Assembly (NCBI RefSeq): GCF_029392315.1
Contig: NZ_CP113939.1
Coordinates: 2,575,792 to 2,639,791 of the forward strand
DNA length: 64,000 bases
DNA from: Bifidobacterium sp. ESL0690
GTDB lineage: Bacteria > Actinomycetota > Actinomycetes > Actinomycetales > Bifidobacteriaceae
Reading direction: 5' to 3'
Under the pieces are notes generated by a model. The model searched no databases. It was not told the DNA's origin and saw only the letters and a list, made by a program, of their open reading frames with translations. This document shows, one piece after another, positions 1,724 through 60,285 of the stretch. Each line of letters begins with the position of its first letter. Within the stretch, counting starts at the first letter, position 1. A program made the translations under genes and the position numbers.

Positions 1724-1856
1724 GGACTAAGAGCGCAAAGGGCACACAGACGGATACAATTAATGCATACTGGCCGATAAAGTAATGCGGCAATTCAAAC
1801 CCGCAACTATTGCACGGCAATGACGGATTGATGTGGTGAGTTACAAGGAACGAGAG

Positions 1857-3512
1857 ATGGATTTCATGGCTGATAACAGCGGGTTTAACGGCGGCGGGCG
1901 GCGCAAGGATGCCGTTGAACCGACAGACTTGGACAAGGCCTTCGAAGATTTCGGCGTTCCGGATCCGCCGTCGGGCGCGGGTCTGGGTTCTGATGCAAGT
2001 TCCGTTGCGGGCACAGTTCCACTTCCGAATGCCACTGCAAACGCGGCTACGAGCGCGATTCCGCTTCCAAACTCCTCCTCGGCTCCGACCCAGAATTGGG
2101 CTTCGGCTGATGGCCAGATACCTCTCCCCCGATCCGCAGCGAACCCGACTGGTGCAACCGACCAAGCTCAAACGGAAGTGTTCCAGCCTATCCAGACTGC
2201 GCAAACCGCGGAGCAAAGCGGCTTTGCGGGACAGGGGAACTTTGCTGGGCAGGCCGGGTATATGGCACAAAACATCGGCGGCAATGGCAACGCAGGTAAT
2301 ACTGGAAATATCGGTAACGCAGGCAATATAGCCAATGCCAGCCAAGCAGGCCATGGTCGGCATTCCGGCCACAATGCGGGCAGCAACGGGAGCAATGGCG
2401 GAAATGGCAACGCCAGGGCACCGCGCTCGAAATCGAAGCGCCTGTGGATAGTGCTGGGAATCTTCGCCGAAATCCTCTTCACGGTAGCCGCGATTTGTGC
2501 GCTATACATCGTTTGGCAGATGTGGTGGACCGGCGTGCAATCCGAACATACGCAATACAATCAACGCCAATCGGTCTCGTGGAGCGACCCGAGCAAAGCT
2601 GCGGGCTCGTCCAAGGGTGTCAGCATCGCGAAAGCCCAGAACGGCGCTCCCCCAGTCCAGCCGCAATCGGCCGATACCGGCGACATCGTCGCGCAGATCT
2701 ATATTCCACGTTTCGGCGACCAGTGGCAGCGCAACATCGTGCAGGGCACCGATATGACCTCGCTCAACAAGCACGGCATGGGGCATTATACCGATTCCCA
2801 GATGCCCGGGCAGATCGGCAATTTCGCCGCGGCAGGCCATCGCAACGGTTACGGGCAGCCGCTGGGCGACGTCGACAAGCTCAAGGCCGGCGATGCGATT
2901 GTGCTGCGCACGAAGGATTACTGGTATGTCTATACCTACACCAGCTACAAAATCGTGACGCCGGACCATGTAGAAGTCGTCGCGCCGAACCCTGACGATC
3001 CCACGGCCCCGGCCACGCAACGCATGCTCACGCTGACGACCTGCGAGCCGAAATACTCCACCCCGACGCACCGCTGGATTACTTACGGCAAGTTCAAGTA
3101 TTGGGCGAAGGTCTCGGACGGCGTGCCGCAGGAACTCACCCACGTCGGGCAGAACGGCAAGGTCCAGTTCATCAACAACCAGCAGGAATCGGTGTTCGCC
3201 AAACTTCCTTCGCTGGTTCCGATCATCACCGCGCTGCTCGTTATCTATGTCGTGTTGTTCATCGCCGCCGCGCTCGCTTGGCGTTGGCCGCTTCGCCGCG
3301 CCATTCGCAACGGTGAGGTCAAGAAGCCGGACCCGAGCATTTACGGAGGCCTGACGAGGCTCCAGCCTGGCATCAAAGGGATTCGCATACTGCTGGTGCT
3401 CTTGCTGCTGGTTACGGTGGCGCTTGCCATCATGCAATGGGCCTGCCCGTGGGCGGCGAGCAATATCCCGATTCTGCATCAGATGTCGAACTACGTCGCG
3501 GTGAATAACTGA
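1857..3512 (+). CDS. Class E sortase
   Basis: This is a transpeptidase that cleaves LPXTG-like motifs and attaches surface proteins to the cell wall. The catalytic triad is visible: His328 (AAGHRN), Cys396 in TLTTCEP and Arg406 in THRWITYG. The first 190 residues are a Pro/Ala/Asn/Gly-rich cytoplasmic region, followed by a membrane helix (about 200-225), the sortase domain (about 275-425) and two more helices near the C-terminus. I chose the ATG at 1857 because AAGGA ends seven bases before it; a GTG at 1833 is also open. It is a plausible anchor enzyme for the seven LPLTGG proteins in this window, though that pairing is inference: class E enzymes often prefer LAXTG. Confidence 0.87.
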   Translation: MDFMADNSGFNGGGRRKDAVEPTDLDKAFEDFGVPDPPSGAGLGSDASSVAGTVPLPNATANAATSAIPLPNSSSAPTQNWASADGQIPLPRSAANPTGATDQAQTEVFQPIQTAQTAEQSGFAGQGNFAGQAGYMAQNIGGNGNAGNTGNIGNAGNIANASQAGHGRHSGHNAGSNGSNGGNGNARAPRSKSKRLWIVLGIFAEILFTVAAICALYIVWQMWWTGVQSEHTQYNQRQSVSWSDPSKAAGSSKGVSIAKAQNGAPPVQPQSADTGDIVAQIYIPRFGDQWQRNIVQGTDMTSLNKHGMGHYTDSQMPGQIGNFAAAGHRNGYGQPLGDVDKLKAGDAIVLRTKDYWYVYTYTSYKIVTPDHVEVVAPNPDDPTAPATQRMLTLTTCEPKYSTPTHRWITYGKFKYWAKVSDGVPQELTHVGQNGKVQFINNQQESVFAKLPSLVPIITALLVIYVVLFIAAALAWRWPLRRAIRNGEVKKPDPSIYGGLTRLQPGIKGIRILLVLLLLVTVALAIMQWACPWAASNIPILHQMSNYVAVNN

Positions 3513-14032: not shown

Positions 14033-14311
14033 GCGACACGCCGATGAAGTGACGAATTCACTGGGTTTTGAGGACGCGTCAAATCCTTCCAAATGGTCAT
14101 GAAATGTAAGGCAAAGTAGGACGGCAAACGTTCCACTTAGCTTCCGGAAACGGCGTCGGGCAACCTGATTCGCCATACGACCTTGGGTTGAATTTGGGCG
14201 TAAGACACCCTAATGTTTAATCAATAGTTTAGGTGTTGTGTGAAATCGCGGCGTAATACGAAGTCGCGTCTAGAAGAGTTTGAAGTTTTGAAGTAAAAGG
14301 GTGGGTTCCTT
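14033..14311 (+). promoter_or_regulatory. Shared adhesin promoter/leader repeat, copy 1
   Basis: First of five similar leaders that begin with GCGACACGCCGA and run into the adhesin start. It carries a candidate promoter (TTGAAT 14188-14193, 17-bp spacer, TAATGT 14211-14216), an untranslated leader of about 90 bases and AAGGGTGGG before the ATG. Only genes with the C10 tract have it. Confidence 0.7.
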
Positions 14312-17300
14312 ATGAGTGTCATTCACAGTCTAGTTGCACTGACATTGTGCATAGCCACGGGAATCGTACCCCCCCCCCGCAAAATGAACCGTCACTAAAT
14401 AATCCGAATAATTCCAGCCCGGTCGCCGCTTCCAGCCAGGCTGCCACGGCCTCGGCTGCATCATCAACCTCGGCCATCGTCCCGGCCCACGGCCCCTCAA
14501 CATCTTCCACAACTACTTCTTCGATCTCAGCCACCTCCGCAGGCACCACAGCATCTTCGACTTCCGCTGATGCCACCCAAAACAGCAACAGCCAAACTGG
14601 CAACGCCGCCAGCAACCCTGCCACCAATCAGGCCCAAAGCAGCGTCAACGCGCAAGCATCCAACAAGCCCACAGCCGGCCTCACCCACACCAACGCCGCC
14701 GCCACCCCCACAGCCAAACCCAAAACCCTAAGCGCCCTCACAGCAAAAGACTTCTCCAACGCGTCTAAGACCCTCGCCACATTCCAGCAAAGAATGAAGC
14801 AACCGAGCCGCCACAACGCCAACGACAGTCACCAGACCACACCAACCGCCGCCACCGAATCTAAGTCATCGGCAACCGGCACCCTGCCGCACGCCACAGC
14901 CACGCTGACCGCCAGGCAGAGCCCGGTCTCCCCGAAAGCCACCTCCCCACTGACACGTGAAACATCCGCAGTCGGCCCGCAAGACGAACCCATGGTCGGC
15001 CCGCAGTCCGAGAACCCGCGTCTCACCCGTCTCTACGCCGACCCAAACGATGACGGGCATCTCCAAATCAGCGGCGAAGCCGATCAGGTCTACTACCCGA
15101 ACAACTGGGTCCACGTGGTCATATGTCCCACCGGGCTTATCGGTAACCCCTTCACCCAACCCGGCCCCGTCACAGGAAATGGCGACGTGCCTGCGGCTTG
15201 CAGCAACATCGAAACCTACACCGACGGGCACGCTGGCGGCTATACGGGCGGAGGCACGTTCACCTGGAGTGGCGACGAGGGACGTGGCAACTCCACCTGG
15301 ACCACCCAAGACAGCGACTTCAAAGCAGGACCGGGCTATTACGACATCTGGGCCTACAACAGGAGCTGGGCCTGGAACTCCTATCAAAGTAACATCATCC
15401 GTTATGCCTACACCTGCAACCGCGCGTCAGCCACGAAGGTCACGCTCATCTACGACATGTCAAGCATGCCGGGAGCATCCACGCCATCCAGCGTGACGGT
15501 GAACACAAGCGCAAGACAGGCCAGAGGCCAACTCGCCTACGAGCCAGACCACCCTTCATGGCAGGTATTCGACGGCTGGACCTTCAACGGCGCCAACTAC
15601 AACGCCGGACAAATCGTGACCTTCGACTGGCGTGCCAACGCCACATACACCGTCACTCCCCGCTGGCACCAGCCCACCACCGCGACGTTCAACTACAACC
15701 TCAACGGCATGTCCGGCAGCACACCCGGCTCCCTGCAGTTCAACACCACCTATTACGGCGGCTCGTTCACCCTCCCGAATCCACCCTCGCACCCCGACTG
15801 GCAGATCTTCGACGGCTGGAGCATCGACGGCTCCAGCTACAACCCCGGCCAGACCTACACCTACGCCGCACACGACAACGGGACCCACACCGTCACCGCA
15901 CGCTGGCACACCCGCTACGACACCGTCACCATCCATTACGACATGGGCGCCACCGGCTGCAACAAGCCGCCGGACCAGTCCGTCGACAGCACCTACTACA
16001 CCAACACCAGCCTCGCAGGAACCCCCTCCACCTGCCCCGCACACACCGCCTTCGACGGATGGACCATCAACGGATACAACTACAACCCCGGCGGCATCTT
16101 CACCTACCCCCAGCACTACACCGCCACCTACACCGCAACAGCCCGCACCCATACCGTCCAGGCACCGACCGGCCTGACCGCCGCCTACCACATCGCCGGC
16201 ACCGTCACCCTGTCCGGCACCAGCAACGTCCAGTCCGGCGACAAGATCACCGCCTGCATGACCGAAGGCACCGGCGACACCGCCTGCCAGCCAGCCATCA
16301 CCGCACCCGCCAACAACAGCGCATGGCAGTGGACCATCACCTTCCCGGCCGGCGACTACACCACCCGCTACGGCATCGGCCGCCAGCACCACTTCACCGC
16401 CAAACTCACCAGCAAAAACATCGACAGCACCCAAGCCGACCTGCAGGGCACGCTCCCATGGATGACCGTCAGCTACAAGCACGGCGAAGGCGCCACCGGC
16501 ACTATACCCGACACCAACGCGCTGACCGACACGGCCACCGGCAAGGCCACATTCACCCTGCCCGACAAAGGCACCATGACACCGCCCGCGCACGCGTTCC
16601 CCGACTTCACCGGATGGACCGACGGCACCACCCTCTGGCAGCCCGGCAGCAGGGACATCCCCACCAACACCACCGGCGCATCCACCGACGCAAACGGGCA
16701 CACCACCCTCACCCTCACCGCCCAATGGCACACCGTCACCGCACCCACCGGCGTGACGGTCACATGGAAGCATGACATACGCTACGGCAATCCCGGGGTT
16801 GTGTTCACGGCCTCGGGCCTGCCGACAGCGGCGACCGGCTGGCAAATCCGTTACAAGCCCAAGAGCAGCCAGTCCTGGTGGACCTCGCCCAGCGACAAGA
16901 TGGCACCCACCGACACTTACGAGACGGAGAACTTCGACTTCACTCCCGGAAGCACGTGGACCGTCCAACTGCGCGACGTGGCCAAGGACGGCAACGGCAA
17001 CACCGTCACCAGCGACTGGAGTCCTGAGATCACCGGGATCCTGCCCTGGATGGATGTGACCCTGCTGCCGGGCGGCCAGCAGCCCGGCGACACCACGGTT
17101 GGCCATGCCAAGGGCTTGGTCGACCAGGTCGAGCATAAGGGGTACGTGACCTTGCCGGCCGGCGTAGGGACCGTGCCTGCCGGCATGGCGTTCCAATCAA
17201 CCGGCGGGTGGACCACCCGCCCGGACGGTTCGGGCAGCGCCTACGACATAGGCGCCGCCGACATTCCCACCAGCATGGGCGCGGCCGGAAGCGACGGCAC

Positions 17301-19815
17301 GGTCTTGCTGACCCTGTACGCCCGGTGGAGGATGGCGACGCAGGCGCCCGCGCGCGGCCAACCGTGTGCGAGTGTGGCGGGTTGGGCGCAGTGGGGCACA
17401 TCGGCCGGCGCGATAGCGGGCGTGGGCGACGCGGCCCACCCGCAGGACACGGGCGCGGTCTGCTATGCCATTGAGGGCACGACCCTGCGCCTGACCGGCG
17501 GCACCAGCCCGGCCTACGAAGACCCCGACGGTGTTCCCTGGGCGTCTCGAAAGGCCCTCATCACTAAGATCAGCGTCGAGGGCGACCTCACCCTTGACGG
17601 AAACAGGATAGTCTATGCCGGGGCGCCATTCCGTCGCATGACGCTCCTCAGCGACTTCACGATCATCCCAGCAGGAAGACTCCGCCTGACCGGTCAGGCG
17701 GCCGGTAGTCTTTTCGATAGCGATGGGGCGCTGCTTTCCCTCGATGTGACCCGTTTCGACATTGCCGCCGCCCAAACGCTGGACTACATGTTCTCCAGGT
17801 GCGCCAGCTTGGAATCAATCACGGGACTGGAGTCATGGAAGACGGACAACATCACCAACATGTCGTCCATGTTCAACGGCGACGGCCAACTGACGGACGT
17901 GTCGGGCACCGCCGGCTGGAACACCGCCAAAGTGGATTCCATGAAATACATGTTCTCCGGCTGTGACAGTCTGGTCGACCTGGACATGAGCCAATGGGTG
18001 ACCAGCCAGATGGACGGGTACGGCCTGTCCCAGCTGATGCCAAAGAACCTCAAACGCCTGCGACTCGGGCCCAACACAAGAATCGCCCGCTCGACAGGCT
18101 ACGACGACGCATGGGTCTACATATCGGCCACCCACACCTGGCACCGATGGGACTGGCCCAAAGACCACCACCCCGTCGACGGCGGCGCCGTCACCGACCC
18201 TGCGGGAACAGCCACCAACGGCACGCTGGACGCGTTCGAGTCGCGCGCCGCCTCCTCGGACCCGGCCGGCACCTACATCCGCGACGACGTCACCCCCACC
18301 TGGACCGACCTCACCTACAACCTCAACGGCGGCGCCGGAGACGCCAGCCTGCCCACCGCCGTCAGCACCACCGATAGCACTGGCCTCGCCATCGACACCA
18401 CCTTCAAGGACGGCGAATACGCCACCGCCAGCCCCACCCACATCACCGGCAACAAACCCCACCAACTCTTCCAAGGCTGGGCCATCGACACCACCAACAT
18501 GACCGGCGGCACCGCCACCATCAACAACCACACCATCACCGCGGCCAAGGGAGCCGGCGGCGTGGCAACCGTCACCGCCCAATGGACCCCGGCCCCCCAG
18601 GCCATGCCTGGCACACTGGCCGTGTCCGTCACCCCGAACACCACCGACCAGGGCGGCGTCAGCGTAAGCGTCACCGCCACGCTCGATACGGCCATGCCCG
18701 CCATCGACGCCGCCAACGGCGACCCGGCCAAACCCGCCGTAGACGCCGGCGGCACGGTCAAGGTCTGCGCCAAACCCAGCAGCCAGAACGACGACTACTA
18801 CAGCGTGCAATGCCAGGCCAAGGCCAGCACCACCGCGGGAAGCCAGACCATCACCCCCGACCCGCTGCAACTGCCCGGCACCGCCCAACTCGATGGCAAC
18901 ACGGTCTCCTTCCCCGCACCCGGAGAGCAATACACGCTGGCTGCCACCTACACGCTCACCGACCCCCAGACCCGCAACCAAATCGACTCCACCGCCACAC
19001 AAGCCGGAGGCGGCTCCGTGACCGGCACCCTGCCCTGGGCCGACACCTCCTTCGACACCAACGACTCACACGGCGGCACCGGCACCGCACCCGACGACGC
19101 CAAGTCGTTCGTCGACACCGCCAGCGGCAAGGCCTGGGCCTCCCTGCCCAACGCCACCAACACCATGACCCCCGAACACACATTGTTCGCCGGATGGTCC
19201 GCCACCGCGAGCGCCGCCAACCCAGACACCGGCATGGGCGACCCCGCCAACCGCAACATCCAGCTGCCCGCAACCACGGGAGCCACCGAGACCCAGACCA
19301 CGTTGTATGCAATCTGGCACAAGCTCACCGCACCCGACGTCTCCGTCATCAAGCGCAACACCCTGACCAACACCGTCACCATCCAAGGCACCGCCATGCC
19401 ATGGCAGGCCGGCGAGACCGTCAGCATCAAAATCGTCCCCCTCGACGGTCAAAACGACGGCACCATCCTCGACAACCAATGGCACACCACCGACATGGAC
19501 CCCGTCGGTCTCAACAACGGCAGCTACCAACACCCCTGGAGCATCACCCTCACCGAGGACCAGCTACCCGTTCGCGGACGCTACCGCATCGACACCAGAC
19601 TCAACGGAGAAGACACCCCATGGCGCGCCGCACCACACACCGTCTACGCCGAAAGCTCCTCCTCACCCATCACCCTCACCGGCCTCTACAGCCACGCACT
19701 CCCCCTGACCGGCGGGCAACGCACCATGCTGATCGTCGCCCTCGCCCTCCTGTGCGTACTGCTCACCGCAGGCAGCCAGCTCGCCCGCAACCGCAGACGC
19801 TGGCACCACCAATAA
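14312..19815 (+). CDS. Giant LPXTG surface protein 1, C10 tract, out of frame
   Basis: The ATG at 14312 encodes a hydrophobic leader (MSVIHSLVALTLCIATGIV), then a run of ten C at 14369-14378 shifts the frame and translation stops at 14398. The body is open from 14347 in another frame; 11 or 8 C would join them into about 1,834 residues. Numbered from 14347: Ser/Thr/Ala stalk (10-200), a family-specific domain (225-350), InlB-type repeats (362-440, 445-521, 525-602), Ig-like (604-705), another InlB-like repeat (706-795), FN3-like (797-902), DUF285/BspA block (about 1007-1273), further InlB and Ig modules, then LPLTGG at 1785-1790, a helix and an RRRWHHQ tail. Expected role: cell-wall adhesin; ligand unknown. 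Confidence 0.85.
14369..14378 (+). repeat. C10 homopolymer switch, adhesin 1
   Basis: Ten cytosines directly after GGAATCGTA and before GCAAAATGAACC. As sequenced the upstream signal-peptide frame ends at the TAA at 14396-14398. Confidence 0.95.
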
Positions 19816-20946: not shown

Positions 20947-23900
20947 ATGGGTGTTATTAACGGTTTTGTCGCTTCATTGCTATGTATAGCCATGACAATC
21001 ATGGCTCCGATGTCTTCTGGAGCGTCCAATGACCCGGTGGGGCCGTCCACCCAGACGACATCCAGCCAGGCCGCATCGGCCACTTCCGCCTCAGTATCTT
21101 CCACGATTCAGACTTCTGCGTCTTCGGCTCCTTCCGCTTCCGCTAGCACTACCTCCGCTGGCTCCACCCAAGCCAGCAACGGTCAAACCGGCAACACCGC
21201 CGGCAACTCTGCCGGCAACTCTGCCGCCAATCAGACCCAAAGCACCGTCAACGCGCAGGCATCCAACAAGCCCACGCAACAGCCGAATACCAACCAACCT
21301 GCAAACCAACCCCAAAACGCCCAAAACGGAACACGTACACCAGGCAAAGATGCCAAGCACACCTCCGCCGCCGGCCTCACCCACACCAACGCCGCCGGCA
21401 CCCCCACGGCCAAACCCAAAACGCTCGGCGCTCTCGCAACAAAAGACTTCTCCAACGCATCCAAGACCCTGGCCACATTCCTGCAGCGGATAAAGCAACC
21501 GGACCACCAGGCCAGATTAGCAAGCATCACAAGCACACAATCATCGGCATCCGGCACCTTGCCACGCGCCACAGCCACCTTGCCCGCCAGCCAGAGCCCA
21601 GTCTCCTCGAAAGCCACCTCCCCGATGGCACACGAAGCGCCCGAGGCAAGCCCGCAGGACGAACCGGTTGTCGGCCCGCAGGGCAATCCAGTGGTTGGCC
21701 CCCAGGGTTCAGGCCAAGTCCGCGTCTCGTCGTGGAGCGTCGACTCGGACGGCGTGGTCCACGCGTCCGGCACCGCCGACACAATCGGCGGGCAGACCAC
21801 ATGGATCGCCCTGCGCGCCTGCCCCGTCGGCACCCCCTTCCCCAACCTCCCCAACGGCTCAAGGCCCGAGGGCTGCATGGACCAGGAGATGCTCACCGAC
21901 GGCCACAGCGGCGGATACGACGGGCCCGACAACTTCCCATGGGGCGGCTTCTATGCCGGCAGCCACAAGATGTTCGTAAGCGGGGCGGGCTACTACAACA
22001 TCTGGGTCTTCTCCCAAACCGCGTGGGGCAACACGAGGGTGGGCCCCTTCACCGTGGCATCAAACTACTACGCCAACGGCACACAGGTCACCGGCACGAA
22101 GGTGACGCTGTCGTATGGCATGCCGTCAGGCTGGTCAACGCCGTCCACGCAGACCATGGACACGACCCGCGCCGCAGCCGGCGTGTATCTGCCGGGCGAG
22201 CCGAACCACCCGTCCTGGGCCGTGTTCGACGGATGGACGCTCAACGGCACGAACTATTCAGCCAACCAGTACGTCGAGTTCCCCAAGAGCACCAACGCCT
22301 CGTACACTGTCACCGCACGATGGCATGCACTGCCCACGAGCGTCAGGTTCAACTACAACCTCAACGGCATGTCCGGCAGCACACCCAGCTCCCAGGAAAT
22401 CAACACCACATATTACGGCGGCTCGATCACCCTGGTCTCCCCGCCCTCACATCCCGCCTGGCAGGTCTTCGACGGCTGGCAGGTCGACGGCCGGGACAAC
22501 GTAAACCCCGGCAAGACTTACACATATCCCGCCCATGACGAAAGCACCCACACCGTCACCGCACGCTGGCACATCAACTACACGGGCCTGAGCGTCTACT
22601 ACAACCTCAACGGCATGCCCGCCACACAACCCGGCAGCCAATACGCCGACACCACCTACAACTCCGCAAGCCTCACCGTCGGCGGCGCCCCTTCGGGCAT
22701 ACCCTCCTGGGCCGCGTTCGACGGCTGGTACACCAACACCAGCGGCACCGGCACCGACTACCAAGGCCGCACCCTCAGTCTCGGCTACCAGTCAAACGCG
22801 AGCTACACCCTCTACGCCAAATGGCACGCCCTGCCCACCAACATCACCATCACCTACGACATGGGCACCACCGGATGCGACAAGCCCGCCGACCAGCATC
22901 CCGACAGCACCGGCAAGACCGGCACCGCCACCACCACACTCGCCGGCACACCCGCCACCTGCCCCGCCCACACCCACTTCGACGGCTGGACCATCAACGG
23001 CACCGACTACGCCCCCGGCGGCACCTTCACCTACCCCAGACACTCCACCGACACCTACACCGCCACCGCGCGAACACACACCGTCCAAGCGCCCACCAAC
23101 CTCACCGCCGCCTACCACATCACCGGCACCGTCACCCTGTCCGGCACCAGCAGCGTCCAATCCGGCGACAAGATCACCGCCTGCATGACCGAAGGCACCG
23201 GCGACACCAGCTGCCATCCAGCACTCACCGCCACCGCCAACAACAGCGCCTGGAACTGGACCGTCACCTTCCCAGCCGCCGACTACACCACCAAATACGG
23301 CTACGGACACCAACACCACTTCACCGCCAAACTCACCAGCAAAAACACCGACAGCGCCACCGCCGACCTCAAGGGCACCCTTCCCTGGACCACCCTCAGC
23401 TTCGACAAGGGCGCCAGCGGCGGCACCGCGCCCGGCAGCAAGGACGCATTGACCGACACGACCGCCAACAAGGCCACGTTCACCCTGCCCGGCAAAGGCA
23501 CCATGACCGCACCCGCCAACGCGTTCCCCGACTTCACCGGCTGGAGCGACGGCACCAACCTCTGGCAGCCCGGCGGCAGGGACATCCCCACCAACGCCAG
23601 CGGCGCGTCGACCGACACGAACGGGCACACCACACTCACCCTCACCGCCCAATGGCACACCGTCCCAGCACCCACCGGCGTCACCGCCACATGGTCACAC
23701 ACCACAGGCTGGATCTCGTTCAAGGCGTCAGGCCTGCCGACGGGGACGACCAGCTGGCAGATACGCTACAAGCCCAATAGCAGCCAGTCCTGGTGGACCT
23801 CGCCCAACGACACGATGACACCCACCGACACCTACCATACGTATTACTCTGATTTCACGCCCGGCGACACATGGACCGCACAGGTGCGCGCCACCGCCAA

Positions 23901-26760
23901 CGACGGCTCCGGCCACACCGTCACCAGCGACTGGAGCCAGGAGATCACCGGCATCCTGCCCTACATGGACGTCATCCTCAAACCAGGCGAAGGCACCGGA
24001 CCCGTCACCGACCCCCACGTCAAGGGCCTGGTCGACCCGGACGACCACAACGCCCACCTCACCCTGCCCAACGCAACCGACAAAGGCATCAGCGGGCCCG
24101 ACGGCAGGATCTTCGCCAACCAATGGAACACCAGCAGCGACGGGTCCGGCACCAACCACGCCTCGGGAACCGACCAGCCCATCCCCGCCAGCGAGGGCAC
24201 GCCCGACGGGCAGGCCACCAGGCTCACCCTCTACGCCCAATGGAAACCCCAATCACCCGCCCCAGCGGCCGGCCACTGCACCGACGGGGCTGCCGGCGCA
24301 GCCGGCTGGGCGCAATGGGGCACTCCCGCAGGGCCCGTCTCCGGGCTGGCCGGGCAGAACACCGCGGCCGCCTGCTGGGTCATCGACGGCACCGTCCTGC
24401 GCCTGTCCGGCGGCACCAGCCCCGACTACCAATCCAGCTCGGACATCCCCTGGGCCAGCCAGTCCAACAGGATCACCAAGGTCTCCATCGAGGGCGACCT
24501 CACCCTCAACAAGACCAACGACAGCTACAGCGGCCTGTTCGGCTACGGCCACTACTACGGCAAATTCACCACGCTCACCACCCGCGACGGCGGCAAGCTG
24601 CGCATCGCCAACCAGGCCGGCAGAAACCTCTTCGTCTACGCCTACAACTTGTCGGACATCGACCCGTCCGGCTGGGACGTCAGCCAGGCCACCACCTTCG
24701 AGAGTATGTTCAACACCACAGCCACCTCCTTGGACCTGTCCGGATGGAAGACCGGCAACGTCACCACCATGGAACGCATGTTCGAGGGGGCCAGCAACCT
24801 GACCAGCCTCGACCTGTCCGGCTGGGACACCCGCAAACTCCACAATACCTCCGCCATGTTCTCCTCGAACAACAACCTCGCCGATATCGACCTATCCGGC
24901 TGGGACACCACACACCTCAACACGCTCGACGCCAACGCCATGTTCCCTAAAGGCCTCAAACGCCTCCGCCTCGGACCCAAGACCCGCCTGCCCGACCCCG
25001 TCGACAGCTGGTACGACCCCTTCAAAAATGTGGACGCCGCCCACACCTGGCACGAATGGGACTGGGTTAAAGGCCACCACCCCGCCGACAACGGGCCCGT
25101 CGGCACCACACCGCTCACCGCCGGCGACGGCACGACAGACACCCTCAGAAAACGCTGCGAATCCGCCACACCCCAAGGCGTCTACATCCGCGATGACGTC
25201 AACCCCACCTGGACCGACCTCACCTACAACCTCAACGGCGGCACCGCAGACAACACACTGCCCACCCAGATAGGCGCGGCGGCCACCGGGTCCACGCCCA
25301 AGCGCGACGGGCTCGCCATCGACACCACCTTCAAGGACGGGCAATACACCACCGCCACCCCCACCCACATCACCGGCAACAAGCCCCACCAACTGTTCAA
25401 CGGCTGGACCATCGACACCACCAACGTCACCGGCGGAACAGCCACCGTCAGCAACCACACCATCACCGCGCCAAAGGGCGCCGGCGGCACGGCCGCCATC
25501 ACCGCCCAATGGAGCCCGACACCCCAGGCCACACCCGGCACGCCAGCGGTGACAGTCACCCCGCGCACCACCGACCAGGGATCCGCCGGCGTGAGCGTGA
25601 CCGCCACGCTTGATGCGGCCATGCCGGCCATCGACGCCACCGGCGACGACCCGGCCAAACCCGCCGTAGACGCCGGCGGCACCGTCAAGATCTGCGCCAA
25701 ACCCAGCAGCCAGAACGACGACTACACCAGCGGCCAATGCCAATCCAAGACCAGCACCACCGCCGGCAGCCAGACCATCACCCCCGACCCGTTTGCTTTA
25801 CCCGGTTCCCTGACCGGAGGACAAGCCACCACCTTCCCCGCCCCCGGCGAGGAGTACACGCTGAGCGCCATGTACACGCTCACCGACCCACAGACCCGCA
25901 ACCAAGTCGACTCCACCGCCACCCAAGCCGGAGGCGGCCTCACCACCGGCACCCTGCCCTGGGCCGACACCACCTTCGACACCAACGACTCCCACGGCGG
26001 CACCGGAACCCCGCCAACCGAAGCCAAATCGTTCGTCGACACGGCCAGCAACAAGGCCTGGGCCTCCCTGCCCAACGCCACAGCCACCATGAAACCCGAA
26101 CACTTCGTGTTCGCCGGATGGACCGCCACCGCGAGCGCCACCAACCCCGACCAAGGCATGGGCGACCCCGCCAGCCGCATCATCCAACTCGACGCCACCG
26201 GCGCCACGGAGACCCGGACAACCCTCTACGCGGTCTGGCACAAGCTCGCCACACCAACAACCGTCACCGGCATCACACGCGACCACATGACCAACACGGT
26301 CACCATCACCGGCACCGCCACACCCTGGACCAGCGAGGACGACATCACCCTCGACCTCGTGCCCCTCGACGGGCAGGACGGCCTCACCCCCGCAGGCGCG
26401 CGGCATGCGACCATCAGCCCCACCGATGGGCACGGCGCCACACTCGCCTACGACGGGCACACCGAACACCCGTGGACCATCACGCTGACCCCCAGCGACC
26501 TGCAATCGGGCGGCAGGTACCGCACCGTCGCCAAACTCGAGGCCCACGACCACGCCTGGCGCGACACCAACGCCGACCTCCACGTCTACAGCGAACCCGA
26601 TGAACAGGCACAGCCCGCCATCGACGGCTACTTCCACCACGCCCTGCCCCTCACCGGCGGGCAACGCACCATGCTCATCATCGCCCTCACCCTGCTCGGA
26701 GTCATCCTCACCGCAGGCAGCCAACTCGCCCGCAACCGCAGACGCTGGCACCACCAATAG
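20947..26760 (+). CDS. Giant LPXTG surface protein 2, no C tract
   Basis: Intact frame of 1,937 residues with a leader MGVINGFVASLLCIAMTIM related to, but different from, the C10 genes, directly continuous with the body. After the stalk (about 25-170), with the conserved SNASKTLATFLQRIKQP segment, and VVGPQ repeats come a family-specific domain (about 250-380), four or more InlB-type repeats each ending TARWH/YAKWH, Ig-like and FN3-like modules, a DUF285 block (about 1120-1390, with TTFESMFN and TTMERMFE units), further InlB/Ig modules and LPLTGG at 1900-1905. It lacks the shared leader promoter and the common 3' tail; a different hairpin follows. Likely a constitutive or regulated adhesin rather than a switched one. 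Confidence 0.9.
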   Translation: MGVINGFVASLLCIAMTIMAPMSSGASNDPVGPSTQTTSSQAASATSASVSSTIQTSASSAPSASASTTSAGSTQASNGQTGNTAGNSAGNSAANQTQSTVNAQASNKPTQQPNTNQPANQPQNAQNGTRTPGKDAKHTSAAGLTHTNAAGTPTAKPKTLGALATKDFSNASKTLATFLQRIKQPDHQARLASITSTQSSASGTLPRATATLPASQSPVSSKATSPMAHEAPEASPQDEPVVGPQGNPVVGPQGSGQVRVSSWSVDSDGVVHASGTADTIGGQTTWIALRACPVGTPFPNLPNGSRPEGCMDQEMLTDGHSGGYDGPDNFPWGGFYAGSHKMFVSGAGYYNIWVFSQTAWGNTRVGPFTVASNYYANGTQVTGTKVTLSYGMPSGWSTPSTQTMDTTRAAAGVYLPGEPNHPSWAVFDGWTLNGTNYSANQYVEFPKSTNASYTVTARWHALPTSVRFNYNLNGMSGSTPSSQEINTTYYGGSITLVSPPSHPAWQVFDGWQVDGRDNVNPGKTYTYPAHDESTHTVTARWHINYTGLSVYYNLNGMPATQPGSQYADTTYNSASLTVGGAPSGIPSWAAFDGWYTNTSGTGTDYQGRTLSLGYQSNASYTLYAKWHALPTNITITYDMGTTGCDKPADQHPDSTGKTGTATTTLAGTPATCPAHTHFDGWTINGTDYAPGGTFTYPRHSTDTYTATARTHTVQAPTNLTAAYHITGTVTLSGTSSVQSGDKITACMTEGTGDTSCHPALTATANNSAWNWTVTFPAADYTTKYGYGHQHHFTAKLTSKNTDSATADLKGTLPWTTLSFDKGASGGTAPGSKDALTDTTANKATFTLPGKGTMTAPANAFPDFTGWSDGTNLWQPGGRDIPTNASGASTDTNGHTTLTLTAQWHTVPAPTGVTATWSHTTGWISFKASGLPTGTTSWQIRYKPNSSQSWWTSPNDTMTPTDTYHTYYSDFTPGDTWTAQVRATANDGSGHTVTSDWSQEITGILPYMDVILKPGEGTGPVTDPHVKGLVDPDDHNAHLTLPNATDKGISGPDGRIFANQWNTSSDGSGTNHASGTDQPIPASEGTPDGQATRLTLYAQWKPQSPAPAAGHCTDGAAGAAGWAQWGTPAGPVSGLAGQNTAAACWVIDGTVLRLSGGTSPDYQSSSDIPWASQSNRITKVSIEGDLTLNKTNDSYSGLFGYGHYYGKFTTLTTRDGGKLRIANQAGRNLFVYAYNLSDIDPSGWDVSQATTFESMFNTTATSLDLSGWKTGNVTTMERMFEGASNLTSLDLSGWDTRKLHNTSAMFSSNNNLADIDLSGWDTTHLNTLDANAMFPKGLKRLRLGPKTRLPDPVDSWYDPFKNVDAAHTWHEWDWVKGHHPADNGPVGTTPLTAGDGTTDTLRKRCESATPQGVYIRDDVNPTWTDLTYNLNGGTADNTLPTQIGAAATGSTPKRDGLAIDTTFKDGQYTTATPTHITGNKPHQLFNGWTIDTTNVTGGTATVSNHTITAPKGAGGTAAITAQWSPTPQATPGTPAVTVTPRTTDQGSAGVSVTATLDAAMPAIDATGDDPAKPAVDAGGTVKICAKPSSQNDDYTSGQCQSKTSTTAGSQTITPDPFALPGSLTGGQATTFPAPGEEYTLSAMYTLTDPQTRNQVDSTATQAGGGLTTGTLPWADTTFDTNDSHGGTGTPPTEAKSFVDTASNKAWASLPNATATMKPEHFVFAGWTATASATNPDQGMGDPASRIIQLDATGATETRTTLYAVWHKLATPTTVTGITRDHMTNTVTITGTATPWTSEDDITLDLVPLDGQDGLTPAGARHATISPTDGHGATLAYDGHTEHPWTITLTPSDLQSGGRYRTVAKLEAHDHAWRDTNADLHVYSEPDEQAQPAIDGYFHHALPLTGGQRTMLIIALTLLGVILTAGSQLARNRRRWHHQ

Positions 26761-27116: not shown

Positions 27117-30100
27117 ATGAGTGTCATTAATGTTCTTGTCTCATTTACATTATGTATTACTTTATCGTTCATTGCCCCTGCAGGCACAGCACGCGAAAAA
27201 TCGGCTGCCCCAACCGACACCGCAACCGCAAGCAGCCTCCCTACCCAGACAATCCGTTCAGCAAACCTGCCGGGAAAGACCTCGCCAACACAAGCCATAC
27301 CAACCAAGCCATCGCAAATCGCAACGGCAAAAGTAAACGCCGCCAAGGCTGCCAACACCAGCCTCACCCATGCCAGCACGATTAGTGCACCCAAGCTTGG
27401 CACCCGCACCAACACCAGCGCCGCTGAGTCAGGCCTCACCCATACCAATTCCAGCGTGGCCAAGTCAGGCCTCACCCATACCAACGCCGCTGGCACACCC
27501 GCAGCCATGCCAGAAACGCTGAGCGACTTCATTCGAAAGATAAAGTCACCCGGCCATCGAAACCATAGGGGCCATAAAACAGCCAACAAACGCCATGGCA
27601 CACATCGCATGCTTAGGACGGTTGGCGGCATCACAACTGATGCTCCACAAACTACGCAGTCCACACGGTCTCTAAAAGCCAAGAAATCACCAAAATACAG
27701 GCAACCTCGGCAATCCGCACGATCCACGCAATCCAAGCACCCCTTGCTATCAACCCCCACCCGTACATTGCTCGCCAAAGCCGCTCTGCCGGCAATCCAG
27801 AGCCCGGTCAGCGCTCAAGCCGCCCCTCCCCTGACACGCGAAACACCCGCCGTGGCCCCTCAGGACGAGCCCACGGTCGGCCCGCAATACTACACAAACA
27901 GCGACCCCTCAGGCCACATCAGAAACGTGCAATTCACCACAGACAGCGCCGGCAACATCAACATCACCGGCACCGCCGACGACACCGACAAGCCCTTCGG
28001 CTACGACAGCACGTGGATCATGGCACGTCTCTGCCCCACCAGCACCGGCACCCCGCACATCTCCGGAACAACCATCCCCTCAGAATGCAGCGACGTCGAA
28101 CTCTACACCAACGGCCACGCCAGCGGCGAAACAGGCACGTTCACATTCGGCCCCGGCCGTTGGGGCATCTTCTACAGCGCCGCCGGATCGGCCGCCAACA
28201 CCTCCATCGACCATTCGCACTCCATCACCCCAAACGACTTCAAGGAGGGACCCGGCTCCTACAACATCTGGCTGTTCAGACGCGACCGCTTCTACCAGAA
28301 CCTCACTACCCCCGTCGCGGCAATCACCGACTACTACCCTCCATTCGCCCCAAGCAGCGTCACCCTCAGATACGACATGTCAGGCATGCCGGGCGCATCC
28401 ACGCCAGGCAACGCAACAGTGGACACGACCTACGGGGCGGGAAGCACCACCCTCGCGGGCGAACCAAGTCACCTCTACTGGCAGATTTTCGACGGCTGGT
28501 ACCTCAACTATTCCAGCTACAACGCCGGCCAGAGCGTATCCTTCGCCAAGGGCACCAACGCCACATACACCGTCACACCGCGCTGGCACACCCGCTCCGA
28601 CACCGTCACCATCCACTATCAGGACAACGGCTCCGGCTGCACCATGCCCGGCAACCAGACCGCCGACAGCGCCAACTACAGCAGTCTGATCCTCGCCGGC
28701 ACGCCATCATGCCCCGCCCACACCGCCTTCGACGGATGGACCATCAACTACGCCAACTACGACCCCTACGGCACCTTCAACTTCACCCAGCACGTCACCG
28801 CCACCTACACCGCCACCGCACGCACCCACACCGTCCAAGCGCCGACCAGCCTGACGGCCGCCTACCACATCACCGGCACCGTCACCCTTTCCGGCACCAG
28901 CAACGTGGTCTCCGGCGACAAGATCACCGCCTGCATGACCGAAGGCACCGGCGATACCGCCTGCCAGTCCTCATCCGCCGCACCCGCCAACAACAGCGCT
29001 TGGAACTGGACCGTCACCTTCCCATCCACCGACTACACCACCAGATACGGCTACGGACACCAGCACCACTTCACCACCAAACTCACCAGCAAAGGCGTAG
29101 ACAGCACCACCGCCGACCTGAAAGGCACCTTGCCCTGGATGACCGTCACCTATGACAAAGGCACCGGCACCGGCACCGCACCCACCGATGAAGACGCCCT
29201 CGTCGATACCGCCGCCGGCAAAGCCACGATCGCCGTCCCAGCCCAAAGCGACATGACCGCGCCCACCGGCTCATGGTTCGAAGGCTGGAAGAACCCGGAC
29301 GGCACCCTCACCTGGCAGGCCGGCTCCGCCGCCATCCCAACCAACGCCAGCGGCGCGACGACCGACGCAAACGGGCACACCACACTCACACTCACCGCCC
29401 GATGGCACACCGTCCCCGCACCCACCGGCGTCACCGCCCGCTACAGCCACGCGGACGGCTACGTCTACCTGACCGCCACCGGCCTGCAAGCCGGGGTCAC
29501 CGGCTGGCAAATACAGGTCAAGCCCAACACGGACAACCACTACTACCAGGCCGCATACAACACGTCCACAACCGGCCAGTCCTACTATTACGGTTCATCT
29601 TTCAGGCCCGGCGCCACATGGACGGCCCAGGCCCGAGCCACCTATACCGATGCCTCCGGCAACAGCGTGACCAGCGACTGGAGCAGCGAGTATACCGGGA
29701 TCCTGCCCTACATGGACGTCACCCTCAAACCCGGCAGCCAGCAGACGCCCGGCGGCGACACCCACGCCAAGGGACTCACCGACCTCACCGAGCGGAAGGC
29801 CTATGTCACACTGCCCACCGGCGTGGGCGCAAAACCTGCTGGCATGGACTTTGAAAAGTGGACCACCAACCCCGACGGCACCGGCGACACCTACCAAGTC
29901 GACACCGACATACCCATACCCACCGCTTCGGGCAACCCTGGAAGCGAACCCGGCCAGACCCTGTACACCCTCTACGCCCGCTGGACCTACACCGGCCAGC
30001 CCCCGCAGCCAGGCCACTGCGCGGACTCACCGGGCTGGAGCCAATGGGGTACCGCAGCCACCCAACCCGCCATACCCGGCATCGACGGCCAGGTCACCGG

Positions 30101-32537
30101 CAGCCCCTGCTACGCCATCGTCGACAACGGCACGACCCTGCGCCTCACCGGAGGCACCAGCCCCGACTTCTCTTCTGCTGCCGACATCCCCTGGAACGGA
30201 CAGAAGACCAACTTCACCAAGATCAGCATCGAGGGCGACCTCACCCTCACCAGCAGCACGCCAAGGCCGTATTACACTTCTCCGATCTCCGGTCCATTCA
30301 ACAACGCATACTATCTGACAAGCTTCGAGACCAACGGCCACAAATTCGTCCTCGACCGTTCTGCGGGCAACGGACTCTTCACACAGGACAACCGCCTCCC
30401 CTCCATCGATGTGTCCAACTGGGACGTTCACACAGCCGTCAACATGGACAAGATATTCAGCTTCGATTCTGGGCTCGAACAAATAAAAGGCATCAACAAA
30501 TGGCGTACCAGCAACGTGACCACGATGTACGAGATGTTCTATTATTGCACACACCTGACAAGCGTGGACCCTTCCAATTGGGACACCGGCAAACTTGAAG
30601 ACGCAATGGCCGCGTTCCGCGGCGACGACCAGTTAGCCGACTTGGACCTCTCCAGCTGGAACACCACAAAAACATGGGGAGACGGCGAACTGCTGCCCGG
30701 CAACCTGCAACGCCTCCGCCTCGGACCACAAACCAAGTTCGACAGCAGCGCGTTCAGCGAAATCGGCGACAGCCACCCCGACGCCCACTGGAACGAATGG
30801 GACTGGCCCAAAGACCACTACCCCAGCGACCTCGGCCCCGTGGGAGCCACGGCCGGAACATCCGGCGACGGTACCCTCAACACCCTCAAAACCCGAGCCG
30901 CCTCCGCACACCCCGAAGGCGTGTATATTCGCGATGACGTCACCCCCACCTGGACCGACCTCACCTACGACCTCAACGGCGGCACAGGCGATGCGAGCCT
31001 GTTCACCCAGCCCGGCGCGGCGGCCGCGGGCTCCACACCCAAGCGCGACGGCCTCGCCATCGACACCACCTTCAAGGACGGCGAATACACCATCCCGGAC
31101 GGCACAACCGACACCGGAAACGCGGCCCACCACATCACCGGCAACAAGCCACAGAACCTCTTCCAAGGCTGGACCATCGACACCGGCAACGTCACCGCGA
31201 ACGCGTCCGGCGGTACAGCAACGGTTAGCAACCACACCATCACCGCATCCAAGGGTGCCGGCGGCACCGCGACCATCACCGCCCAATGGACCCCGGCCCC
31301 CCAGGCCATGCCCGGCACACCGGCGGTGAGTGTCACCCCGAACACCACCGACCAAGGCGGCGTCAGCGTAAGCGTCTCCGCCACGCTCGACCAAGCCATG
31401 CCCGCCATCGAAGCCGGCAACGGCGACCCGGCCAAGCCAGCCGTAAGCGCCGGCGGTACGGTCAAGATCTGCGCCAAGCCCGCAAGCCAGTCCTACGACT
31501 ACGGCGGCGTGCAGTGCCGTTCCAAGGCCAGCACCAGCGGCGGCAGCCAGACCATCACCCCCGAGGCGCTCGAACTGCCCGGCAGCGCCCGGCTGCACTC
31601 CAACATGGCCTCCTTCCCGACTTTCGGCCAGCAGTACACCATGGCTGCCACCTACACGCTCACCGACCCCGTCACCCGCAACCAGATCGAAGCCCCGACC
31701 ACACAGTCCGGCGGCGGGTCCGTGAACGGCACCCTGGCCTGGCTCAACGCCTCGTTCGACACCAACGATGCCCACGGCGGCAACGGCACCGCGCCCGCAA
31801 GCCTCAGCTCCTTCGTCGACACCGCCAGCAACAAGGCATGGATCGCCCTGCCCAACGCCACCAACACCATGAAACCCAGCCACTTCGTCTTCGCCGGCTG
31901 GTCCGCCACCGCGAGCGCCATCCAGCCCGACACCGGCATGGGCGACCCCGCCAACCGCAACGTCCAGCTGCCCGCCACCACGGGAGCCACCGAGACCCAG
32001 ACCGTCCTCTACGCCGTCTGGCACAAGCTCACCGTCCCCACCGTCACCAGCCTCAAACGCGACGTCTTCCACAACAGGGTCATCATCACCGGCACCGCCG
32101 CCCCCTGGACCAGGGATGATGACATGTACGTTGAGATCAACCCTCTCGACGGACAGGCCGGGTTCACCCCGGGCTACTTAAACACCCGCATCAGCGTCGC
32201 GGACGGGCAAGGCCACGCGCTGCCCTACGACGGGCACACCGCGCACCCATGGCAAGCCATAATCCCCGAAGACCAGATGCCCGCAGGCGGCAGGTTCCGC
32301 ACCCGCACCATGCTCAGGGCCCTCGACCACGCCTGGCGCGACACCCACGCCGGCACCTACGTCTACAGCGATTGGGAACTGCGCGCCAATCCGCCCATCG
32401 CCGGCCACTACCAGCACTCCCTGCCGCTCACCGGCGGGCAACGCACGCAGCTGATCGTCGCCCTCGTTCTGGTCGGCGTCATGCTCATCGCCGGCAGCCA
32501 GTTCGTCCGCAACCGCAGACGCTGGCACCACCAGTAA
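27117..32537 (+). CDS. Giant LPXTG surface protein 3, no C tract
   Basis: Intact frame of 1,806 residues. The leader MSVINVLVSFTLCITLSFIAPAGTA ends in a plausible AxA-type signal-peptidase site. The stalk is more Lys/Arg-rich than in its relatives and carries GLTHTNAAGTPAAMPETL and FIRKIKSP, a shortened form of the family N-terminal segment. Then VGPQ, a family-specific domain (about 265-405), two InlB-type repeats, Ig-like, InlB-like and FN3-like modules, a DUF285 block with VTTMYEMFYYCTHLTSV, InlB and Ig modules, and LPLTGG at 1769-1774. It has its own promoter and a diverged version of the common 3' tail. Confidence 0.9.
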   Translation: MSVINVLVSFTLCITLSFIAPAGTAREKSAAPTDTATASSLPTQTIRSANLPGKTSPTQAIPTKPSQIATAKVNAAKAANTSLTHASTISAPKLGTRTNTSAAESGLTHTNSSVAKSGLTHTNAAGTPAAMPETLSDFIRKIKSPGHRNHRGHKTANKRHGTHRMLRTVGGITTDAPQTTQSTRSLKAKKSPKYRQPRQSARSTQSKHPLLSTPTRTLLAKAALPAIQSPVSAQAAPPLTRETPAVAPQDEPTVGPQYYTNSDPSGHIRNVQFTTDSAGNINITGTADDTDKPFGYDSTWIMARLCPTSTGTPHISGTTIPSECSDVELYTNGHASGETGTFTFGPGRWGIFYSAAGSAANTSIDHSHSITPNDFKEGPGSYNIWLFRRDRFYQNLTTPVAAITDYYPPFAPSSVTLRYDMSGMPGASTPGNATVDTTYGAGSTTLAGEPSHLYWQIFDGWYLNYSSYNAGQSVSFAKGTNATYTVTPRWHTRSDTVTIHYQDNGSGCTMPGNQTADSANYSSLILAGTPSCPAHTAFDGWTINYANYDPYGTFNFTQHVTATYTATARTHTVQAPTSLTAAYHITGTVTLSGTSNVVSGDKITACMTEGTGDTACQSSSAAPANNSAWNWTVTFPSTDYTTRYGYGHQHHFTTKLTSKGVDSTTADLKGTLPWMTVTYDKGTGTGTAPTDEDALVDTAAGKATIAVPAQSDMTAPTGSWFEGWKNPDGTLTWQAGSAAIPTNASGATTDANGHTTLTLTARWHTVPAPTGVTARYSHADGYVYLTATGLQAGVTGWQIQVKPNTDNHYYQAAYNTSTTGQSYYYGSSFRPGATWTAQARATYTDASGNSVTSDWSSEYTGILPYMDVTLKPGSQQTPGGDTHAKGLTDLTERKAYVTLPTGVGAKPAGMDFEKWTTNPDGTGDTYQVDTDIPIPTASGNPGSEPGQTLYTLYARWTYTGQPPQPGHCADSPGWSQWGTAATQPAIPGIDGQVTGSPCYAIVDNGTTLRLTGGTSPDFSSAADIPWNGQKTNFTKISIEGDLTLTSSTPRPYYTSPISGPFNNAYYLTSFETNGHKFVLDRSAGNGLFTQDNRLPSIDVSNWDVHTAVNMDKIFSFDSGLEQIKGINKWRTSNVTTMYEMFYYCTHLTSVDPSNWDTGKLEDAMAAFRGDDQLADLDLSSWNTTKTWGDGELLPGNLQRLRLGPQTKFDSSAFSEIGDSHPDAHWNEWDWPKDHYPSDLGPVGATAGTSGDGTLNTLKTRAASAHPEGVYIRDDVTPTWTDLTYDLNGGTGDASLFTQPGAAAAGSTPKRDGLAIDTTFKDGEYTIPDGTTDTGNAAHHITGNKPQNLFQGWTIDTGNVTANASGGTATVSNHTITASKGAGGTATITAQWTPAPQAMPGTPAVSVTPNTTDQGGVSVSVSATLDQAMPAIEAGNGDPAKPAVSAGGTVKICAKPASQSYDYGGVQCRSKASTSGGSQTITPEALELPGSARLHSNMASFPTFGQQYTMAATYTLTDPVTRNQIEAPTTQSGGGSVNGTLAWLNASFDTNDAHGGNGTAPASLSSFVDTASNKAWIALPNATNTMKPSHFVFAGWSATASAIQPDTGMGDPANRNVQLPATTGATETQTVLYAVWHKLTVPTVTSLKRDVFHNRVIITGTAAPWTRDDDMYVEINPLDGQAGFTPGYLNTRISVADGQGHALPYDGHTAHPWQAIIPEDQMPAGGRFRTRTMLRALDHAWRDTHAGTYVYSDWELRANPPIAGHYQHSLPLTGGQRTQLIVALVLVGVMLIAGSQFVRNRRRWHHQ

Positions 32538-59700: not shown

Positions 59701-60285
59701 CGGAACATCCAACTGCCCGCCACTGTGGGAGTCACGGAGACGCAGACCACCCTGTACGCCGTCTGGCACAAGCTCGCCACACCCACGGTCACCGGCATCA
59801 CACGCGACCATATGACCAACACCGTGACTGTCACCGGCACCGCCACACCATGGACCAGCGAGGACGCCATCACACTCGACCTCACACCGTTGGACGGCCA
59901 GACCGGCCTCACACCCGCCGGAACACGGGTTGTGACCATCAGCCCCACCGACCAGCACGGCGCCATGCTCGCCTACGACGGACACACCGAACACCCATGG
60001 ACGCTGACCCTCACCGCAGATGAACTGCCCAGAGGAGGCAGGTACCGCACCGTCGCTAAGCTGAAAGCCCACGATTACCAATGGCGCGACACCAACGCCG
60101 ACCTCCACGTCTACAGCGAGCCCGACCAGCAGAACCAGCCCGCCATCGACGGCTACTTCCACCACGCGCTCCCCCTGACCGGCGGGCAACGAACCATGCT
60201 GATCATCGCCCTGACCCTCTTGGGAGTGTTCCTCATCGGCATGAGCCAATTGGCCCGCAACCGCCGACGCTGGCACCACCAATAA
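53732..60285 (+). CDS. Giant LPXTG surface protein 7, largest, C10 tract, out of frame
   Basis: The leader MSVINSLIALTMCIATGIV is cut off by the C10 run at 53789-53798; the body is open from 53767 and would give about 2,184 residues if joined. It is longer than its relatives by extra modules: at least five consecutive InlB-type repeats, and the Ig-like block with SGDKVTACMTEGTGDT is present twice. The family-specific domain (RVTNWGISPDGKLSGYGFAD) resembles that of adhesin 2. A DUF285 block with the SMIRTFSGNPALTDL unit, InlB and Ig modules follow, and LPLTGG lies at 60169-60186. The C-terminal third is nearly identical in DNA to adhesin 5. Confidence 0.85.
53789..53798 (+). repeat. C10 homopolymer switch, adhesin 7
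   Basis: Ten cytosines in the same context and phase as the other switch genes. Confidence 0.95.

Follow-up and report, generated by a model that had tools for sequence, protein, structure and literature searches.

In five of seven tandem paralogues in the window (the whole 64,000-nucleotide stretch of the Bifidobacterium sp. ESL0690 chromosome analysed here, contig NZ_CP113939.1, positions 2,575,792 to 2,639,791), a run of ten C residues puts a signal-peptide leader out of frame with the body of a giant, sortase-anchored surface protein, and when this genome is taken together with four relatives such C or G tracts are found at 52 signal leaders, in 47 of which the body lies in one and the same register, -1, relative to the leader. 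Given the same offset in dozens of related genes, the data suggest that a chance defect is a less apt description than a shared device, whether this is an on/off switch or a recoding element. In our analysis the best reading of the tract genes is a slipped-strand expression switch, to which we would give slightly better than even credence.

Anatomy of the first gene

An earlier note on this DNA had picked out a single gene, here called gene A, as a leader cut off from its body by a run of ten C, and the anatomy that it described is exact to the base in the sequence. The leader ORF (14312-14398, plus strand) opens, counted from its ATG at 14312, with 19 codons of hydrophobic leader, MSVIHSLVALTLCIATGIV, after which come the C10 run at 14369-14378 and a TAA in the leader frame at 14396-14398. 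The claim that a giant ORF lies in a different frame from the leader also stands: the body (14377-19815, plus strand) is in register -1 relative to the leader, remains open until 19815 (1,812 codons counted from the end of the tract) and contains DUF285/PARCEL repeats; its end is formed by LPLTGG, then a hydrophobic stretch, then a basic tail. The body frame is also open 5' of the tract, as far back as 14284, where inspection by eye found no signal-like hydrophobic core and, in agreement with the same note, no ribosome site upstream of the tract; among the ORFs listed for this gene the longest starts at GTG 14347. ARAGORN places a tRNA-Ala at 18662-18750 on the minus strand, within the body of gene A, a call that is probably spurious.

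One practical consequence of this arrangement is that gene callers must start the body downstream of the leader ATG, i.e. without a signal peptide, and because the called start lacks it dozens of giant surface proteins may be mistaken for cytoplasmic or disrupted ones.

The tandem array

Gene A opens a tandem array of seven paralogues, A to G, which occupies 14.3-60.3 kb of the window, with every gene on the plus strand. The same C10 run is present in five of them (A, D, E, F and G), with tract starts at 14369, 33264, 39530, 47334 and 53789, always at the identical position and within an identical 54-bp block, and these five have in common an upstream region (14102-14311 in gene A) that by alignment is unlike that of B or C. 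In gene D the leader ORF is 33207-33293 (C10 at 33264-33273) and the body 33272-38809; the corresponding coordinates are 39473-39559 (39530-39539) and 39538-44919 for gene E, 47277-47363 (47334-47343) and 47342-52855 for gene F, and 53732-53818 (53789-53798) and 53797-60285 for gene G. Genes B (20947-26760, 1,937 aa) and C (27117-32537, 1,806 aa) have no run, and their leaders are in frame with their bodies. The difference between the upstream regions of B and C and those of the tract genes suggests, as far as can be judged from sequence, that these two tract-free genes may be regulated separately.

Five C10 runs in the window compare with an expectation of 0.82, but the count alone is only mildly surprising, because three out of 100 dinucleotide shuffles reach at least five; the strong point against chance is the single tract position within the identical 54-bp block of five paralogues.

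All seven proteins end in LPLTGG followed by a hydrophobic stretch and an arginine-rich tail. DUF285 was found in each of the six that were scanned for it (A, B, C, D, F and G; the scan did not include E) and PARCEL surface repeats in each of the three scanned (A, B and D), a combination of repeats and LPXTG-type C-terminus that identifies them as sortase-anchored surface proteins of the BspA/PARCEL kind. In every one of the five tract genes the signal-peptide ORF and the LPXTG ORF are out of frame and meet at the C run. The bodies do not look decayed, since they are open for up to 2,162 codons (the length reached in gene G). Similarity between modules is uneven across the array; the most divergent body is that of gene D (four DUF285 and twelve PARCEL stretches), which is only 28% identical to that of gene A, yet its 5' cassette is common to both.

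The minus strand carries parB, parA, rsmG, jag, yidC and rnpA between 5.2 and 12.2 kb (NCBIfam assignments, with parA and jag below the curated cut-offs), and 3.7 kb of the single contig remain beyond the end of the array. Because this neighbourhood and the position near the contig end both fit, it is plausible that the array sits next to the replication origin. In the part of the window's ORFs that was scanned, a class E sortase gene was found at 1833-3512 on the plus strand, about 10.8 kb ahead of the array.

Leader tracts in related genomes

The earlier note had treated gene A as a single case; the gene is real, but the phenomenon is wider, extending to five genes in the window, nine of the 13 C or G runs of at least eight in the ESL0690 genome, and 52 tracts over five genomes. 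All nine leader tracts of ESL0690 are at -1: besides the five in the window they comprise L097, at a related leader elsewhere in the genome, and L098, L100 and L101, which represent a second type. Of the other four runs, assigned partly by eye, one falls within a transposase-like ORF, one precedes a small gene, one is in a region where no gene is evident, and one belongs to a 16S gene.

Several side observations may be recorded here. In the second tract type, found in other long genes, a G10 run separates the basic part of the signal peptide from the hydrophobic part; its six members are L098, L100 and L101 together with L105-L107 of strain ESL0769, five of them at -1 and one in frame, and the L100 gene contains a List_Bact repeat. 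The run before the small gene (L099, at about 3474 in the ESL0690 genome) is a G9 run that by eye directly precedes an ATG; it may form a ribosome-binding site, with its length tuning initiation. As to the 16S genes (including L103, G000:C1:168573), the lengths of the G run in the two copies of each genome are 8/6, 7/6, 6/7 and 6/7, and agree only in ESL0682 (5/5); the differences may reflect homopolymer miscalls or real variation between copies.

Over the five genomes, one of the 52 leader tracts is at +1 and four are in frame, the remainder being those at -1. The run is 8-11 long in 51 of them, so that a run of at least eight near the start of coding sets the frame, while the one other run is a C7. 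Within the -1 set the length of the run varies from 7 to 10 and its start falls at all three codon positions, and the body offset is nonetheless constant. At a 50% identity cut the leaders form seven families, each with at least one member at -1; at 40% they fall into two clusters and at 35% they chain into one. Binomial chances were computed for the 47 out of 52 at -1, but because the leader copies are related no significance value is quoted.

Strain ESL0769 has a seven-gene array in the same order, with tracts C10, C10, C7, C10 and C10, all at -1, and with tract-free, in-frame orthologues of B and C. The only one of its nine leaders that is in frame (L107) has a longer run and has also, apparently, lost a base beside it. 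In ESL0775 the array comprises four genes with C9 at -1 and one tract-free gene in frame, and eight further leaders beyond it are at -1; tract-free paralogues are thus in frame throughout, two in the window, two in ESL0769 and one in ESL0775. Of the 19 leader tracts in ESL0790, 18 are at -1 and the remaining one is at +1. Two pairs of copies there are informative: L168 and L170 differ by A or C beside the run (C9 as against C10), which alters the run length and leaves the offset unmoved, whereas L169 and L171 differ as C9 and C8, L171 now being at +1. Finally, all three leader tracts of ESL0682 are in frame, at C8, C8 and C11. In-frame and out-of-frame alleles of related leaders therefore both exist, with the proviso that three of the four in-frame alleles come from one genome.

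It was also observed that the ESL0790 tracts (L166, L168-L182) fall into five leader families and that 17 of the 19 runs are 9 long. In ESL0682 one in-frame gene (L114, G015:C1:1239234-1242533) ends about 850 codons past the tract, with no LPXTG-like end in the residues printed, while another member of the family has an internal TGA.

Some points of scope affect these counts. Short tracts are undercounted, because C7 leaders were noted only inside stretches that had already been fetched, and the survey of ESL0790 was restricted to runs of at least eight followed by GC. Four rows whose start is 82-90 codons away (L150, L160, L163 and L183) were excluded from the 52, as was an ESL0790 run that is not in a leader (L167). 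A pattern search with a looser filter over 15 further genomes, picked by relatedness of the bodies, covered 50 places (two at contig ends of genome G083 being left out) and gave two credible leader rows, which stand outside the 52: L152 (genome G008, C10, -1) and L164 (genome G104, G10, in frame).

Across the genus, exact G10 runs are present in 98 of 112 genomes. Ninety such loci among those listed were examined (30 and 60 regions, some places occurring twice), and a signal-leader filter left four rows, L214 and L250 in frame, L252 at +1 and L219 at -1, the last of which does not by eye resemble a signal peptide. The registers are thus mixed, but four rows are too few to serve as a baseline; a search started from L252 brought up no genome among the 112 other than its own. 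The largest number of exact G10 runs tabulated for any of the 112 genomes, 44, is that of the 2.1 Mb genome G008, and none of the 20 G10 regions fetched from it passed the signal-leader filter.

Conservation and selection

Comparison of the ESL0690 and ESL0769 arrays, which come from two species, shows the exact C10 kept in four of the five pairs of orthologues, the fifth (gene E) being C7 in ESL0769, and an equal register in all five. The 19 bases before the tract show no differences in any pair. Protein identity between the bodies is 39-74%, and in the chromosome just before the array identity is 87% over one long aligned piece (8.3 kb) and 91% over a second (4.1 kb), with shorter pieces at 70-96%. 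Recent copying or gene conversion between paralogues does not explain the equality of the tracts, because the leaders keep gene-specific substitutions which, by eye, the members of each orthologue pair have in common. Traceable length changes are few in all, amounting to the C10/C7 and C9/C8 pairs, the A/C difference and the base loss in L107 already mentioned. No second strain of the species studied appeared among the 12 proteins of a first query (ten of them from ESL0690 or ESL0769 themselves) or among the best 120 of 226 and best 120 of 4283 matches of later ones, and a search of the plasmid collection gave no match.

For ten leaders from these two genomes (eight of them distinct), pN/pS is 0.29 in the ATG frame, as against 1.00 and 1.96 in the other two, and because the ratio is low in that frame only, the leader looks to be translated from its own ATG. 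Over the 48 bases 3' of the tract the frames do not separate (0.51 in the body frame, 0.46 in the leader frame). The leaders of ESL0775 show four differences in total, all nonsynonymous in the ATG frame, which are too few to tell.

A MutS_I domain was found in none of the five genomes by a search that was positive in 11 of 14 controls, and since it went undetected in all five, homopolymer runs such as these should be unstable.

Interpretation of the fixed register

On the preferred reading, the C tract would be the control point for a family of sortase-anchored surface proteins of the DUF285/PARCEL type. Translation would begin at the leader ATG, and signal peptide and body would be joined or not according to how long the C or G run that closes the leader is. 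In the genotype that was assembled, presumably that of the majority, leader and body are one frame apart, and ribosomes would be expected to stop just past the tract, leaving the protein undisplayed. Replication slippage within the run, escaping correction by MutS, would then generate a minority of in-frame cells, and as each locus would switch independently the set of giant proteins on display would vary within the population; genes B and C, having no tract, would need no switch. We infer that run length changes in living cells as the main route to expression, and that the products are adhesins. DNA switching with an out-of-frame majority is our first choice because the anatomy equals that of the measured pilin case in B. 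breve, the closest documented mechanism in the genus, and the in-frame alleles of related leaders (all three in ESL0682, one of nine in ESL0769) support it. However, the register, fixed in so large a proportion of the tracts, is unlike the legacy of a switch that flips often and freely, since free drift among the states should leave each of the three registers represented in a population; run length is mostly equal between two species despite the divergence of the bodies; and the sole in-frame allele of ESL0769 has apparently also lost a base beside its run. A ratchet, in which slippage prone to insertion is combined with selection against in-frame majorities, could heap loci at -1, although the in-run changes C10/C7 and C9/C8 are losses if the commoner lengths are ancestral.

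The constant register fits recoding better, because a backward slip of one base on a homopolymer joins exactly these two frames. The -1 register would then itself be the functional state, in which ribosomes slip back one base or RNA polymerase adds one, and every cell would make a small fixed amount of giant protein from unchanged DNA, with run length setting the dose; we regard this as a serious competitor, although as less likely than DNA switching. In its favour are the single offset seen in seven leader families despite differing run length and phase, the ESL0790 copies in which a changed base beside the run left the offset unmoved, the occurrence of the same offset with C-sense and G-sense runs alike, and an X_XXX_XXX heptamer in the leader frame in 46 of the 47 -1 tracts, though this last is largely a consequence of the run lengths; moreover, frameshift expression of interrupted B. 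breve pilus genes has been proposed before (PMC5009743, in the part available). Against it, the four in-frame alleles and the one +1 allele exist, and none of the five window genes has, in the 100 nt from the tract, a structure clearly better than shuffled sequence (simple folds, z from -1.29 to +0.66). No stem-loop of the kind associated with programmed frameshifting emerged downstream of these five tracts, no Rfam family reached the gathering threshold in the window, and 14200-14420 contains only three 6-nt inverted repeats. In addition, the available portion of the paper on RNA polymerase slippage concerns A/T runs (PMC6260861), the available portion of the B. breve study reports slippage at the DNA level (PMC9187656), and a fixed tract length is not unique to recoding or to the present family, because the second (1889-type) B. 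breve locus in that study has a tract of 10 in all three strains given. A mixed recoding and switching device is also possible: a two-tier arrangement in which a -1 recoding cassette gives each cell a low dose and rare DNA slippage adds cells that are fully on seems to us less likely than not, but if true it would mean a large giant-adhesin repertoire, spread over seven leader families, for which the out-of-frame genotype is the normal working state.

Two less probable explanations dispense with a device altogether. If the true runs were one base longer and the base caller had undercounted them, the leaders would simply be in frame. Four of the five genomes are of ESL strains with neighbouring taxids, where one common technology may bias all; the two 16S copies differ in their G run in four of the five genomes; and it is warned, in the accessible text of PMC9187656, that annotated tract lengths can be wrong. 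However, ESL0682, from the same strain series, is in frame at its three tracts, C7 and G7 runs within three giant ESL0775 ORFs are in frame, and the G10 run in the transposase-like ORF of ESL0690 is in frame, each of the six aligned homologues matching the ORF before the run (20-28 of 43-63 aligned positions) as well as after it (17-22 of 42-45). That last control is weak, because a run would be in frame one time in three by chance and because the ORF has 136 codons as against 450-610 in the homologues, so that decay of this ORF is itself a possibility. We nevertheless consider an artefact in the form of a uniform undercount of homopolymers improbable. More improbable still is that the leaders are dead, the tract genes having gone out of use and persisting solely as a store of sequence with which the in-frame genes B and C can recombine; the tandem arrangement, the uneven similarity of modules and the divergent body behind the common 5' cassette of gene D would suit such a store, but the five bodies are all uninterrupted as far as a terminal LPLTGG, the leaders show purifying selection and the upstream region is conserved.

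If the tracts do work, one strain could present many combinations of giant adhesins, which bears on how symbionts hold their niche; the ESL series presumably consists of bee-gut strains. The fixed -1 register also turns into a testable question whether interrupted bifidobacterial surface genes are switched by DNA slippage or read by frameshifting.

Comparison with known systems

The earlier note took a switch inside the signal peptide of giant InlB/BspA-type adhesins next to oriC to be undescribed. A switch at the signal peptide is in itself not new, since a tract between the Sec signal and an LPXTG body has been described for the pilins of B. breve (Penno et al. 2022, PMC9187656). According to the parts of that paper available, in strain UCC2003 the Sec and LPXTG ORFs of two pilins, bbr_0113 and bbr_1889, are split by G11 and G10 respectively; as here, the Sec-signal ORF has its own initiation site and leads into a homopolymer tract, the LPXTG ORF lies in another frame without initiation signals, and the annotated state is out of frame. 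The same parts report that one culture contained G10, G11 and G12 at 3, 37 and 59% at one locus and G9 and G10 at 6.5 and 93.4% at the other, that pili were seen on strains in which the two ORFs had been put in frame, and that the productive form increased tenfold and twofold at the two loci in mice. The strain table there gives G tracts of 8-13 in Bifidobacterium, with one B. breve locus at 11, 11, 11, 10, 9 and 9 over six strains. The B. breve target, as described there, stands first in a pilin operon that has a sortase of its own, whereas the targets here are tandem giant DUF285/PARCEL proteins, for which one sortase, that of class E well before the array, was identified. Here too, unlike in B. 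breve, there are up to 19 loci per genome, mostly with C-sense runs, and a single common -1 register with near-fixed lengths between two species.

Gardnerella belongs, like Bifidobacterium, to the Bifidobacteriaceae. In the available text of PMC11287997, runs of at least eight are reported in that genus at genes that include some with InlB repeats and LPXTG sites, a likeness to the present surface-protein genes, and Sanger sequencing is reported to show 9/10 variation between colonies in one gene; however, about 70% of the G/C tracts there lie upstream of ORFs, while those described here end a signal leader. The RCC1-repeat LPxTG proteins of honeybee bifidobacteria, as far as the accessible part of PMC4449606 describes them, resemble the present proteins in being tandem and highly diverse, with Flg_new repeats and an LPxTG anchor, but have RCC1 in place of DUF285/PARCEL, and the word frameshift does not occur in the text of that paper; nor did such tracts in bee bifidobacteria figure in the titles or abstract openings of the matches listed from the open-licence PMC literature. 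Programmed -1 ribosomal frameshifting offers the likeness of a conserved -1 offset over a homopolymeric slippery run and differs in that the window genes have no downstream structure better than chance. Taken together, the window genes appear to be a variant of the homopolymer leader switch of bifidobacteria, set apart by a fixed register that calls for explanation, wider than the earlier note reported and found in related species.
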